Shown: piece after piece, positions 26,883 through 30,154 of the stretch
Numbering within the stretch: position 1 is the stretch's first letter
Layout: each line of letters opens with the position of its first letter
Source: a virus
Virus record (IMG/VR): IMGVR_UViG_3300048079_000214
Coordinates: 1 to 31,718 of that record
Strand: one strand, 5' to 3'
DNA length: 31,718 nt
Position numbers and translations under genes: made by a program
Notes under the pieces: generated by a model
What the model saw: the letters and a program-made list of their open reading frames with translations, nothing else
Database searches by the model: none
What the model was told of the DNA's origin: nothing

Positions 26883-27200
26883 TCAGCCGCGCGACCGCTC
26901 CGCAGCCTCACGAGCCGTCTTGGCGTCATGGCACGGAACGCACAACACTTCCTTGTTCGATTCGTCGTCACTGCCGCCCTTCCAGAGCGGAATGATGTGG
27001 TCGACCGGGCCACCGATGGTGGCGCGACCTTTGCGCTTGCACTGCTGGCACAAGCCGAAGTCACGCGCTCGGATGCGATCGCGATCACGCACACCGGCCG
27101 ACCCGCGCTTGCGCTCGACCGTCTCAGGTCGCTGCGTCGGCAGCATGGTGACTCTGCTTGCCGCAGGACGCAGTTGGGTTCGTAGCTGCTGCAGCTTCAC
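26883..27200 (-). CDS. HNH endonuclease
   Basis: This 105-residue protein has a GTG start at 27200, overlapping the previous stop as GTGA. The HNH core contains C-Q-Q-C (about residues 51-54), then V-D-H-I-I-P-L-W-K-G-G, a conserved Asn (S-N-K-E-V) and C-V-P-C-H. The DH pair, Asn and final His would bind the catalytic metal and the two CxxC pairs a structural zinc. HNH proteins next to terminase genes are known partners in cutting at cos sites in phages such as HK97. The N-terminus is basic and probably DNA-contacting. Confidence 0.92.
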   Translation of the reverse strand: MKLQQLRTQLRPAASRVTMLPTQRPETVERKRGSAGVRDRDRIRARDFGLCQQCKRKGRATIGGPVDHIIPLWKGGSDDESNKEVLCVPCHDAKTAREAAERSRG

Positions 27201-27645: not shown

Positions 27646-27734
27646 GCGATACCTCGAATCCGATTGAATGTTGCTTGCTCATGCAGCTTGAGCAAGCGAT
27701 GGCGCAGCCAGTCCAACTCCTGCGCGACCGTCAT
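27642..27734 (-). CDS. 30-residue peptide gene
   Basis: This encodes M-T-V-A-Q-E-L-D-W-L-R-H-R-L-L-K-L-H-E-Q and ten more residues, a likely amphipathic helix. It begins one base after the upstream stop and its TGA overlaps the next ATG as ATGA. The upstream gene's end (GGGGAGAAA) could supply a ribosome binding site. It may work only as a translational coupler; position is the main evidence. Confidence 0.45.
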   Translation of the reverse strand: MTVAQELDWLRHRLLKLHEQATFNRIRGIA

Positions 27735-27735
27735 G

Positions 27736-27948
27736 CTATTTCTCCCCGAAGCCCGGCACGTCGTGTGCGGACTCGGTCTTGAACGAGATGATCCAGATCA
27801 GCACGAGCAATCCGACCAGCGTCCACAGCACGCCGAACGCCCACCCCGGCGCACCAAGGCGATCGAGCAGCAGCCAGAACAGGATGGCGAAGCCGAGCGG
27901 TGAACGCGTCGGCAGGGACGACGACTTGATAACGGTGCTGCGCTTCAT
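27736..27948 (-). CDS. 70-residue membrane protein
   Basis: This small protein has a basic N-terminus and two hydrophobic helices (about residues 17-32 and 36-55, the latter L-W-T-L-V-G-L-L-V-L-I-W-I-I), with an acidic C-terminal tail. That suggests an inner-membrane protein with two passes. I recognise no family. It is the first gene of a block of five overlapping genes ending in HNH. CGAGGTATCGC precedes its ATG, the same initiation sequence used for the gene at 27645. Confidence 0.65.
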   Translation of the reverse strand: MKRSTVIKSSSLPTRSPLGFAILFWLLLDRLGAPGWAFGVLWTLVGLLVLIWIISFKTESAHDVPGFGEK

Positions 27949-28132
27949 GCGATACCTCGGAAAAGAAAAGCCGCCCGGCGCATGGATGCGAGAGGCAGCG
28001 AAGTCCAGCGAACTGGAGGAGACAAGTTGTGGTGGCAGGTGCTGTCAATCCTGCAACGTCGCCCATCACTGGGCGCGAACCCTTGGGCGCAAACGTCTGA
28101 TAAGTTGCTTGCGCATCAGCTAATGCGCCTCA

Positions 28133-28242
28133 CCACACGGCTGCCGGCAGGAGTCGAACCTGCATCCTCTCCTTTCCATCGGACTATTGTTCAATCCGGA
28201 CTGCGGGAGCGCTCTATCCAATGAGCTTCGGCATGCGTGTGG
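28133..28242 (-). tRNA. tRNA-like element, probable pseudo-tRNA with extended stem
   Basis: On the minus strand a T arm (GCAGG-TTCGACT-CCTGC), a D arm (GCTC-ATTGGATA-GAGC) and part of an acceptor stem (TGCCG/CGGCA) occur in tRNA order; the arms resemble tRNA-Arg. Three things are wrong for a working tRNA. Only five acceptor pairs form. The anticodon stem is CTCC/GGAG with about 31 loop bases instead of seven, including an internal hairpin CGGATT/AGTCCG. No CCA is encoded. Beyond a 2x2 mismatch the acceptor is prolonged by seven further pairs (CCACACG/CGTGTGG). I call it a tRNA mimic or decayed tRNA and assign no anticodon. Confidence 0.55.
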
Positions 28243-28574
28243 CGGCTCGTTTCGTGAACCATGCGGCATGTACGTCTACATGCACCTACTACGGATGAAT
28301 GTGGCTTATTCCACACCATTACCGAAATCTTGCGGCGGGCGGCGCTAATCCCCGCACTCTGGGGATGCGCTGCTGGTGCAGGACCGGAGATACGGGAGCG
28401 GACGGCGGGGCTCTCACCCGCGGCAGGGTAGCTGCGGCCGCATTGATCGGGTAGCCCTAACGTGGGCCAGGCGACCAGCCCCAAGGCTATCTGCCAGGTG
28501 GGCGGTGCAACTGGTGCTGGTTACAGCGTCCAGCGTCGAGGAGCGCACATGGGTGCTCGACTGGCCCGGCCGAT

Positions 28575-28639
28575 GCCGGAGCGTACTGCTCTATATGTAT
28601 GGCGCCGTCTTCTGAGACTGGCCGGGCGGGCGCTCCGGC
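28575..28639. repeat. Long-loop inverted repeat
   Basis: GCCGGAGCG (28575-28583) and CGCTCCGGC (28631-28639) are exact complements. GATG and CATC beyond them also pair across a three-base bulge. The 47-base loop is AT-richer at its centre. Confidence 0.65.
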
Positions 28640-28707
28640 ACTCATCGGGCAACTGTGATCCCGTGCGCAGTTTCTTCGCGCTTTAACGTGATGACCAGGT
28701 GGGCGGC

Positions 28708-28827
28708 TTAAGCGCCGCCAATACCCTCGCGCTTGTAGAAGGGGCGAACCGCCTTGGCGATGCCAATCTTGCCAGCAGCCTGGCGCTTGGCTTGAATACG
28801 TTCTGCTTGCATGCGGGTGGTGACCAT
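28708..28827 (-). CDS. 39-residue basic protein
   Basis: This encodes M-V-T-T-R-M-Q-A-E-R-I-Q-A-K-R and a further Lys/Arg-rich stretch ending K-R-E-G-I-G-G-A. AGGAGAG lies four bases before the ATG at 28827, a strong initiation site. That is why I prefer this start to an in-frame ATG 132 bases upstream, which lies beyond the terminator. The charge suggests nucleic acid binding, but no family is recognised. It is the first gene after the terminator at 28852-28874. Confidence 0.55.
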   Translation of the reverse strand: MVTTRMQAERIQAKRQAAGKIGIAKAVRPFYKREGIGGA

Positions 28828-28851: not shown

Positions 28852-28874
28852 AAAAAAGCCCGCAACCTCTCGGT
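28852..28874. terminator. Bidirectional intrinsic terminator
   Basis: AAAAGC-C-CGCA, a nine-base loop, then TGCG-A-GCTTTT forms a stem whose A and T flanks give a U-run on either transcript. On the minus strand six T follow. It closes the transcript of the lipoyl-domain gene 172 bp downstream of that gene's stop. The stretch 28875-29045 holds no gene I can support. Confidence 0.75.
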
Positions 28875-29045
28875 GCGAGCTTTTGTATGGGCGAGCGCCG
28901 GCTGTATTGCGGGCCGGGTACTCGACTGCCTCGGGTGACGTTGGCGCCGAAGCGCGCATTACGTGGATCGAGGGATATGTGAAGGCTTTAGTTTACGCCC
29001 TGTTCTTTCAAATCGCAATCGGAAACGCCATTTACCGATGAAAAT

Positions 29046-30026
29046 TTATGGTCGGCTGGACGTTGGGAAGGGCCAGCCCGTCGGCGCTATAACACTCTGT
29101 GCCACCGGTACTTCCCTTCGGACTGACGCGACCAAATCACCCGGTTTGACCGCTTCACCAACTTTTACATGAACACGGGTAACGGTACCAGCATGGGGGG
29201 AAGGGACTTCAAAAACCGCTTTCCCCATCTGACAATCGACTACAGTCTGATCAGCGCGTAATTTGTCTCCAACGTTCACGTGTACGCAGACTACCTTTGC
29301 ATCAGAGCCGGTCTCAGGTATGAAAACGTGTGCTTCGTCTGCGTGCTCTGGGACGTTGGCGTCATAACCCTGCTCGTTCCGGTGAGATTTGGGAGAGGAT
29401 CCTTGAGGCATCGAAGATTCAAACAGCTCTTTTACTTGCGGTCCGCCCTGCAAAAACGCGTACACTCGATCCCAAGGAATTGGCTGCCGGTTTTCGAAAC
29501 TCTGCTGTGCTAGTTGATCCAAGAGTTCATGACGAGCTCTCTTGCAAAGCTCTGCGAGGGCCGCCGTCTCAGAAGCAGAATCAATTTGAAGATGAGTCAA
29601 AGCCGCGACAACGGTTGTCTTCCCGATAATCACAGCACTTAGCCAGTCCTCCTTACCTTCTCGCAGTCTGTTCTCGGCGTAGTCAACCGACTCTTTCACC
29701 GTCAACAGGTATCCAAAAGCCTCCTTGACCATATTCAAGCGAATAACGAAACCAAGATTTTGTACGCGAGAGTGCAACTCCTCAAGCTTGTCAGCTTCGA
29801 TCTTTCCGATTACGGCATCACGTGCAGCCTTGGTTATTTCGGCCAACTGGTCGGTGGACTGACGCACTACATCGTCAACAGTCCAAGTAGGCTGAGCGGC
29901 TTCGCGCGGGGCGTATTTATCAACTGCGCTGTCAATTACACGGTCAGCTACTGTTAGCGCTTTATTGAGGAGGAAGGAGAAGATTGTCGGAAAAAGCATC
30001 GCTTTGGCAGGTAAGTGAGCGCGCAT
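29046..30026 (-). CDS. Protein with C-terminal lipoyl domain, inserted cargo gene
   Basis: This encodes 326 residues from the ATG at 30026, which has AGAGAGG six bases ahead; an earlier in-frame ATG lacks such a site. Residues 1-205 are helical and soluble, of no family I recognise, with a hydrophobic patch at about 11-20. Residues 205-230 are a polar linker. Residues about 232-303 are a biotinyl/lipoyl domain: V-x-V-x-V-G-D-x-L, then Q-M-G-K269-A-V-F-E-V-P-S-P-H-A-G, then V-K-V-G-E-x-V-x-x-G-D-L. K269 aligns with the lysine that carries lipoate in E2 subunits (normally D-K-A). G replaces D, and the biotin motif A-M-K-M is absent. The gene is AT-richer than its neighbours and lies between the Q-like gene and a terminator, the usual layout of a moron. 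Function unknown. Confidence 0.75.
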   Translation of the reverse strand: MRAHLPAKAMLFPTIFSFLLNKALTVADRVIDSAVDKYAPREAAQPTWTVDDVVRQSTDQLAEITKAARDAVIGKIEADKLEELHSRVQNLGFVIRLNMVKEAFGYLLTVKESVDYAENRLREGKEDWLSAVIIGKTTVVAALTHLQIDSASETAALAELCKRARHELLDQLAQQSFENRQPIPWDRVYAFLQGGPQVKELFESSMPQGSSPKSHRNEQGYDANVPEHADEAHVFIPETGSDAKVVCVHVNVGDKLRADQTVVDCQMGKAVFEVPSPHAGTVTRVHVKVGEAVKPGDLVASVRREVPVAQSVIAPTGWPFPTSSRP

Positions 30027-30038
30027 CAAGGACCTCTC

Positions 30039-30067
30039 TTGACACCTTGCAAAGCAGAAATTATAAG
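30039..30067 (+). promoter_or_regulatory. Near-consensus sigma70 promoter, plus strand
   Basis: TTGACA (30039-30044), 17 bases, TATAAG (30062-30067): eleven of twelve consensus positions. It points toward the 3' end of the Q-like gene and would give an antisense transcript. No plus-strand gene follows closely. Confidence 0.45.
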
Positions 30068-30088
30068 CTATCTCGTACGCCCGAAACC
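30060..30088 (-). promoter_or_regulatory. Possible minus-strand promoter upstream of the lipoyl-domain gene
   Basis: TATAAT on the minus strand (30065-30060) is a perfect -10, placed 34 bases upstream of the gene's ATG. The best -35 at 17-base spacing is only GGTTTC (30088-30083). Position just after the Q-like gene recalls the lambda late promoter. It overlaps the plus-strand promoter. Confidence 0.4.
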
Positions 30089-30154
30089 TTCCCGCAGAGC
30101 AATTTCTAAAAACATACAACAGAACAGGCTCTGCTACAAGATGGCCGTGCCGAC

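Follow-up and report, generated by a model that had tools for sequence, protein, structure and literature searches.

A gene-free stretch ahead of phage terminase genes very probably encodes exchangeable RNA modules, the last with two overlapping tRNA-like folds

Introduction

What does a phage keep in a gene-poor stretch that lies, in the direction of transcription, directly upstream of a 70-aa ORF, a 101-aa ORF and the genes for an HNH endonuclease and the small and large terminase subunits? The question is raised by the window, that is, the whole 31,718-base record of a soil virus analysed here. An original prediction, made from the DNA letters of this locus, had described the stretch as free of genes, dense in exact stem-loops and furnished with one tRNA-like structure, and had proposed a selected RNA or DNA function, namely an RNA antiterminator, a small RNA or a packaging control site. 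From the comparison with relatives, we conclude that the stretch very probably represents the 5' non-coding part of the late transcript on the minus strand and consists of exchangeable structured RNA modules, the last of which contains two overlapping tRNA-like folds sharing one strand. A possible function, which we put forward tentatively, is that of a late-operon non-coding RNA working as a non-decoding tRNA mimic or scaffold.

Results

The stretch lacks recognizable genes and has a mild excess of hairpins

The terminase has its nearest named-phage counterparts in Burkholderia phage Bcep176 (70% identity) and Bordetella phage PHB09 (69%), which makes a betaproteobacterial host probable. The late genes lie on the minus strand and comprise the terminase large and small subunits, the HNH endonuclease (26883-27200), the 101-aa ORF and a 70-aa membrane-like ORF, an order that bears out the predicted position of the stretch ahead of the HNH/terminase block. 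Of note, a 357-aa ORF just upstream of the late-promoter-like site (29046-30119, minus strand) carries a biotin/lipoyl attachment domain (PF00364, E 1.9e-12), an unexpected neighbour for a phage late operon.

We considered ORFs of at least 60 aa touching the stretch, leaving 27982-28224 (plus strand) out of the domain searches. Five ORFs, 27731-28069 and 28191-28484 on the minus strand and 27779-28123, 28376-28615 and 28462-28686 on the plus strand, gave no Pfam match, and the two minus-strand frames had no PHROGs match either. The claim that the stretch holds no supportable gene was thus upheld for every ORF tested. Regarding the stem-loops, we counted 15 perfect hairpins with stems of at least 5 bp, compared to a mean of 7.4 in shuffled sequences (3 of 200 shuffles reached 15), a number also reached by 8 of 124 other segments of equal length. 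For stems of at least 6 bp the count was 4 versus 1.9 (27/200), and for at least 7 bp it was 1 versus 0.6, while an inverted-repeat search of the stretch (seed 9, length 12) returned no inverted pair. The predicted folding energy was below that of shuffles on both strands (z of -2.4 for minus and -3.1 for plus, 20 shuffles each). The reported density of exact stem-loops therefore stands as a mild excess over chance but is weak as a statistic. Local inverted-repeat statistics being too weak, the deciding evidence is the comparison with relatives.

The late-transcript leader is built from swappable modules

Of 80 terminase relatives that were fetched, 16 were matched by blastn of the region, in separate blocks. 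The relatives share a leader layout consisting of a TTG-N16/17-TAAACT site, a conserved block, a terminator-like hairpin, swappable modules, a second terminator-like hairpin and the 70-aa gene (Table 1). Similar TTG...-N16/17-TAAACT or TATAGT sites occupy the same place in five relatives (L005, L011, L023, L087 and L108). The leader block is 80-97% identical over 69-121 nt in nine relatives (L002, L003, L006-L011 and L013) and is also matched in L016 (86%) and L020 (85%), and the site of hairpin 1 is taken by different but equivalent hairpins. Consensus scans for promoters (at least 9/12 matches needed) and, under strict settings, for terminators reported none, including at both terminator-like hairpins, and no PHROGs match for a Q-like antiterminator turned up ahead of the promoter in L005 or L108.

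Table 1. Features of the late-transcript leader and tag-like peptides in named phages
Feature	Record	Position	Strand	Basis or remark
Late-promoter-like site TTGCGA-N17-TAAACT	window	28990..29018	-	by eye
Conserved transcript leader block	window	28892..28960	-	blast matches in relatives
Terminator-like hairpin 1, followed by T run	window	28852..28884	-	by eye
Possible 39-aa ORF with ribosome-site-like GGAGAG	window	28708..28827	-	part of an 83-aa ORF; no Pfam/PHROGs match
Structured RNA module A	window	28505..28705	-	aligned in 7 phages
Conserved module B, including box CACCTGGCAGATAGCCTTGGGGC	window	28370..28503	-	aligned in 4 phages, mean column identity 77%
Module C	window	27961-28260	-	H1 + TLS1 + core + 3' tail
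H1, 5' hairpin GGTTC-ACGAAAC-GAGCC	window	28244..28260	-	covaries in alignment A3, 3 of 4 pairs changed on both sides
TLS1, tRNA-like domain in 16-bp extended acceptor stem	window	28131..28243	-	Rfam tRNA hit, covariation
Core (TLS2): H2 and H3 hairpins whose loops are complementary, closed by stem TGTGGTG/CACCACA	window	28028..28137	-	model R1, 56 bits (window belongs to the R1 training set)
3' tail TGTCTCCTCC and terminator-like hairpin 2 (GCYGCC...GGCGGC-TTTTC)	window	27961..28027	-	by eye; both seen in relatives
Tag-like peptide ANEEMYLAVA	HK620, L248	689-721		
Tag-like peptide ANDDLMMVAA	P1, L252	167-199		
Tag-like peptide ANDDVVLMAA	IME11, L254	616-648		
Tag-like peptide ANDNTFLAVA	UPM2146, L255	822-854		

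Module A was analysed in an alignment of seven sequences (A4), from which the partial copies in L023 and L109 were left out. Its RNAalifold consensus has 39 pairs, 7 of them with compensatory changes, and 14 alignment cells were changed on both sides compared to 4.7 in shuffles (0 of 500 as high); further pair types, one of five measures, were not above shuffles (372/500). Judged by its alignment, module B appears conserved in sequence only. A short box resembling CACTTGGCAGATAGCCCTGGGGC lies at about 28476-28500 on the minus strand of the window; further examples, located past the first terminator or ahead of module C, are present in L002, L003, L005-L009, L011 (twice), L013, L014, L016, L020 and L023. 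Just upstream of module A, minimal start-stop frames (for example ATG-AAG-CGC-TAA or ATG-AAG-TAA) preceded by a ribosome-site-like sequence were seen by eye in L008, L011, L013, L087 and L108.

The site also accommodates genes. True tRNA-Gly or tRNA-Thr genes occupy it in four sister phages (L007, L008, L009 and L016). Short ORFs in opposite orientations, toxin-antitoxin- or antitoxin-like by eye, share this tRNA/module hot spot in L007, L008, L009, L013 and L076, where they follow module C or lie in the interval from terminator 1 to the 70-aa gene.

TLS1 is a covarying tRNA-like domain

The predicted tRNA-like structure proved to be real: the Rfam tRNA model (RF00005) matched 28142-28233 on the minus strand with 32.6 bits, above the gathering score of 29, while ARAGORN called no tRNA in the window. 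Like tRNA, TLS1 has a T-arm with GGTTCRANTCC, a D-arm and 7-bp acceptor geometry. Unlike tRNA, it has no CCA, its acceptor continues as a longer helix, whose 16-bp stem contains two mismatched positions in the window, and its anticodon arm is enlarged. Instead of a 17-nt arm with a 7-nt loop, 33 nt of the window fill what are 9 positions in the model. The anticodon arms of the window, L011, L085, L087, L095 and L096 consist of a 4-bp stem, an internal loop, a 5-bp stem and a loop of 12 nt, the latter being AUUGAACAAUAG in the window. Likewise, the acceptor strand does not end freely but runs into GTGTGGTG, paired with the 5' flank, whereas the tRNAs of sister phages L007 and L009 possess CCA. 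TLS1 thus imitates a tRNA but probably cannot decode.

A search with the pattern GGTTCRANTCC-N11-GTGTGG, in which the absence of CCA after the acceptor is built in, matched 35 viral stretches. By reading these, we identified 16 distinct loci besides the window in which the acceptor strand of the T-arm continues into GTGTGG; L104, L098 and L116 are repeats of three of them. A CCACAC-like complementary strand lies upstream in 15 of the 16, L110 being cut before this point, and acceptor sequences differ between types with pairing kept. Alignment A3 combines the window with the eight loci alignable over the anticodon arm. Across these nine sequences, 93% of cells were paired over the 38 pairs of cloverleaf and stem, and 15 of the 38 pairs had compensatory changes, compared to 7.3 in shuffles (0/500). 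Over TLS1 and its outer stem, 33 cells were changed on both sides versus 9.8 (0/500), and on none of five measures did any of 500 shuffles score as high. In a 15-row set containing one false (chance) row, L083, the inner 8 bp had a mean of 7.07 paired positions, compared to 3.91 with reshuffled partners (maximum 5.4 in 2000), and the T-stem was paired 5/5 in all rows; the window and L095 had been set aside from this set, as another upstream strand scored equal or better ungapped.

ARAGORN called 5 of the 16 loci, most with odd anticodon positions, such as "tRNA-SeC (tca)" in L108. Moreover, in ten further loci (L006, L013, L020, L076, L129, L231, L232 and L236-L238) this outer stem surrounds domains that lack a T-arm, and tRNA likeness of the enclosed domain is therefore not essential to module C. 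In bacterial genome contigs, the exact pattern occurred at seven places, none of which was accepted as TLS1; five (L241, L242, L243, L244 and L246) were without a matching outer stem.

The core shares a strand with TLS1 and has a tRNA-like layout

TLS1 and the core overlap in one strand, as GTGTGGTG can pair either upstream, within TLS1, or downstream with CACCACA, within the core, and the two folds would therefore exclude each other. A nearest-neighbour model of the window preferred TLS1 by 5.1 kcal/mol (-91.9 vs -86.8), which suggests that the core fold may need help to form. In the core, the 7-bp closing stem is followed after 3 nt by H2, then by a variable middle and by H3, which abuts CACCACA. 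In this order, the core has the layout of a tRNA, with acceptor, short link, D-arm, middle, T-arm and acceptor. In L092, H3 is a true T-arm (loop TTCAAAT), which supports equating H3 with the T-arm. Furthermore, a run of 34 nt in the variable arm of the HK620 core is found unchanged in the anticodon-arm region of a tRNA-Pro annotated for phage SW16-7, placing this arm at the anticodon position. Of note, the tRNA-Pro annotated in this Salmonella phage (L253 1178-1263) itself has an enlarged anticodon arm.

We assessed the core in alignment A2, comprising 38 rows: 35 from a list of 127 (false rows included), the window (L001 in that list) and L023 and L204, both from outside that list, which were kept although poorly aligned in H2; two ranges are longer and one is shorter than in the list. 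In A2, 95% of cells pair and 8 cells were changed on both sides, compared to 1.0 in shuffles (0/500). When the structure was slid by +1, 7 pairs were changed on both sides, more than the 5 in the true structure, but only 28% of cells paired. The loops of H2 (GCTGA) and H3 (TCAGC) complement each other, with 91% of cells paired; these loop pairs are conserved and show a G-C to G-U exchange, with no compensatory change. To judge the closing stem, we used 84 distinct H2-H3 places chosen without regard to it. It was fully paired (7/7) at 74 and paired 6/7 at 8 of these, whereas at six slid offsets it was fully paired at 0 or 1 of 84. Five pairings occur, TGTGGTG/CACCACA, TGTGATG/CATCACA, TTGGATG/CATCCAA, TGATCTG/CAGATCA and GCAGATG/CATCTGC, so that the sequence varies between families and the pairing stays.

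Covariation in homologues, proposed at the outset as a check, is accordingly present in the tRNA-like module, in module A and in the core. The alignments thus argue for at least two structured minus-strand RNA modules, A and C, backed by compensatory changes, and both sit between the late-promoter-like site and the HNH/terminase genes. Of the predicted selected RNA or DNA function, covariation supports the RNA part.

The core recurs in much-studied phages

Searched directly against named phages and plasmids, the stretch had no match, and neither had L100, L092 or the L020 module A when used as queries against named phages; the link was made through relative L102. The core recurs in HK620, P1 and in Klebsiella, Aeromonas and Pseudomonas phage or prophage DNA. 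A 121-nt HK620 query matched 133 of 50,697 phage records at E 1e-3 and 146 of 5,426 E. coli genomes at E 1e-5, and among the matches listed the core was almost always unannotated or "hypothetical". Its surroundings vary widely. It lies between the annotated pR'/qut and terminator tQ, ahead of the lysis genes, in HK620; between antiterminator and holin genes, with a tRNA-Gly, in Klebsiella phage 6 LV-2017; between early genes in Aeromonas phage 2_D05; after head genes in Pantoea phage PA-1; beside tRNA-Phe in Erwinia phiEt88; and, in several units, after tRNA-Asn and tRNA-Thr in P1. In IME11 and UPM2146, it lies in stretches (1.6 and 2.1 kb) for which no feature is annotated, and in the latter (Klebsiella phage UPM2146, L255 about 1-2104) several tRNA-like pieces can be made out by eye. 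Pseudomonas trivialis DNA holds a copy with another closing stem, and the L244 genome a different core copy.

Among the terminase relatives, model R1 found the core in only 7 of 80, marking it as accessory. With a lossy first look, R1 found it in 1 of 369 class genomes, and the exact core pattern occurred in 0 of 369 and 0 of 199 genomes, these bacterial searches being too strict or lossy to give a frequency.

The core resembles the prophage sRNA STnc100

Neither in HK620 nor in the window is the core covered by an Rfam family. Comparing the STnc100 (RF02076) consensus with alignment A2, we found the same closing stem (UGGUG/CACCA), a hairpin right after the 5' strand (AAU) and a 3' hairpin that directly adjoins the 3' strand; further traits shared with STnc100/PasD are the variability of the middle and a prophage home. 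In its architecture, the core is thus related to STnc100. In P1, the STnc100 model (33.9 bits, below the cut-off) and R1 (26.9 bits, the locus not being in the training set) match the same place, L252 1499-1619, and elsewhere in the core-bearing UPM2146 the STnc100 model reaches 47 bits, equal to its cut-off. At E 10, the model had no match in the window nor in 15 of 17 other records. Unlike STnc100, the core has different loop sequences, and module C adds H1, the extended stem and a true tRNA-like domain. PasD and STnc100, prophage sRNAs of Enterobacteriaceae, are described as related in PMC13192938, and PMC12711010 places STnc100 downstream of stx2, overlapping the Hfq-binding EcOnc27; the overlap indicates that a prophage RNA related to the core is made in cells. 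STnc100 was detected in vesicles (PMC12370729), a P22 small RNA lies 48 bp upstream of holin gene 13 (PMC13397905), and in phages L and Sf6 the late operon carries tRNA genes at its 5' end (PMC8022706).

Other families were compared as well. GOLLD and ROOL, as portrayed in PMC12286853, are likewise phage-borne, structured and adjoin tRNA genes; unlike them, the modules described here are smaller and exchangeable, and neither family matched the window or 22 relatives at the Rfam gathering score. Betaproteobacteria_toxic_sRNA (RF02278) scored 22.6 bits at the 3' tail of module C against a gathering score of 50 and was rejected, as was a sub-threshold Thr_leader match in the window. Our literature search, with subscription journals largely outside its reach, found no description of the core as a tRNA-like phage RNA.

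Discussion

Conservation, compensatory changes and the overlap of two pairings are observed here. From these, we infer transcription from the late promoter, processing or release, a partner and a benefit for the phage. In the mechanism that we tentatively propose, cleavage or termination of the late transcript would set free stable RNAs retaining the outline of a tRNA, with stacked acceptor and T-like arms and an elbow formed by D-like and T-like loops. Given the lack of a CCA end, the prolongation of the acceptor strand as a paired helix and the replacement of the decoding arm, such RNAs would be neither chargeable nor decoding. They would act in trans, as mimics or scaffolds showing a variable domain at the anticodon position. 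Their partner may be a host or rival factor acting on tRNA, be it in processing, in modification or as a tRNA-cutting toxin or defence, or else an mRNA, bound in the manner of an STnc100-like sRNA. In favour of the mimic, we count the niche shared with phage tRNAs, as seen in the tRNA-Gly/Thr genes of sister phages, the tRNA-Asn/Thr of P1 and, according to PMC8022706, the late operons of phages L and Sf6. Against it, we count the by-eye nature of promoter and terminators, kissing loops without compensation, the energetic preference for TLS1, the domains without a T-arm, the ARAGORN calls at 5 of 16 loci and the presence of the core in 7 of 80 relatives.

Somewhat unlikely, in our estimation, is a base-pairing sRNA of the STnc100/PasD type, in which the tRNA-like frame only stabilises the molecule, while mRNAs of host or phage are bound, perhaps with Hfq, by single-stranded seeds lying between H2 and H3. 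The coincidence of the two independent models in P1, the STnc100 score in UPM2146 and the kinship of PasD and STnc100 stated in PMC13192938 argue for such an RNA, and the architecture of the core keeps the earlier small-RNA idea plausible; yet it would not account for TLS1 having a genuine T-loop and acceptor, and the STnc100 model misses the window and most other records. The put-type RNA antiterminator of phage HK022 mediates RNA polymerase anti-termination in cis. That the stretch is likewise a cis element of the late operon, allowing put-like read-through of terminators 1 and 2 or acting on terminator 2 as a switch between TLS1 and core, would agree with its place between late-promoter-like site and late genes, with the mutually exclusive pairings and with the position of the HK620 core, but we regard it as improbable given that the core also lies between early genes in 2_D05, after head genes in PA-1 and, in P1, IME11 and UPM2146, within tRNA islands or extended regions lacking annotation. 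The antiterminator foreseen by the original prediction is likewise not supported, since unrelated phages have the core in their early regions and within tRNA islands, with no adjoining late promoter.

The swapping of tRNAs, short ORFs and RNA modules between sister phages might also reflect degenerating tRNA genes and debris of mobile elements that collect at a hot spot of insertion and serve no function today. This is largely contradicted by the compensatory changes, and the T-arm and the spacing (3-nt spacer, H3 abutting the closing strand) stay constant across distant phages, making debris very unlikely. Still further from probable is a DNA packaging or recombination site that holds inverted repeats by chance: terminase genes are indeed nearby, but G-U exchanges and compensation fit RNA, and the core is found in quite different places in other phages, so that the postulated packaging control is left without evidence.

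Returning to the non-decoding mimic, a broader version would posit a phage-wide class extending from betaproteobacterial soil phages to P1 and HK620, whose paired overlapping folds share an acceptor strand and present changeable anticodon-position domains as decoys for host tRNA-cutting defences or as a two-state switch. We consider this extension unlikely. The core is there to be seen in intensively studied phages: in HK620, it lies between pR' and the lysis genes, and in P1, beside the tRNA genes. If a tRNA-like design is common to them, unexplained late-operon gaps, phage tRNA islands and prophage sRNAs of the STnc100 kind would all be connected, and deletions in P1 or HK620 would make the role of these regions testable. 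Such a design would also offer an alternative reading for the "tRNA-like sequences" near Pas sRNAs, which PMC13192938 regards as integration-site remnants.

A tmRNA reading of the window was rejected, as a tag-pattern search found none and no tmRNA family was reported. In some phages, a tag-like peptide does occur upstream of the core, in contrast to the window, from which the pattern is absent. Peptides of this kind, each followed by a stop, precede the core in HK620, P1, IME11 and UPM2146 (Table 1) and were the only four matches to the pattern in 2.47 Mb. Permuted tmRNA models match there below threshold (20-33 bits vs 47), and P1 may carry an unrecognised tmRNA-like RNA.
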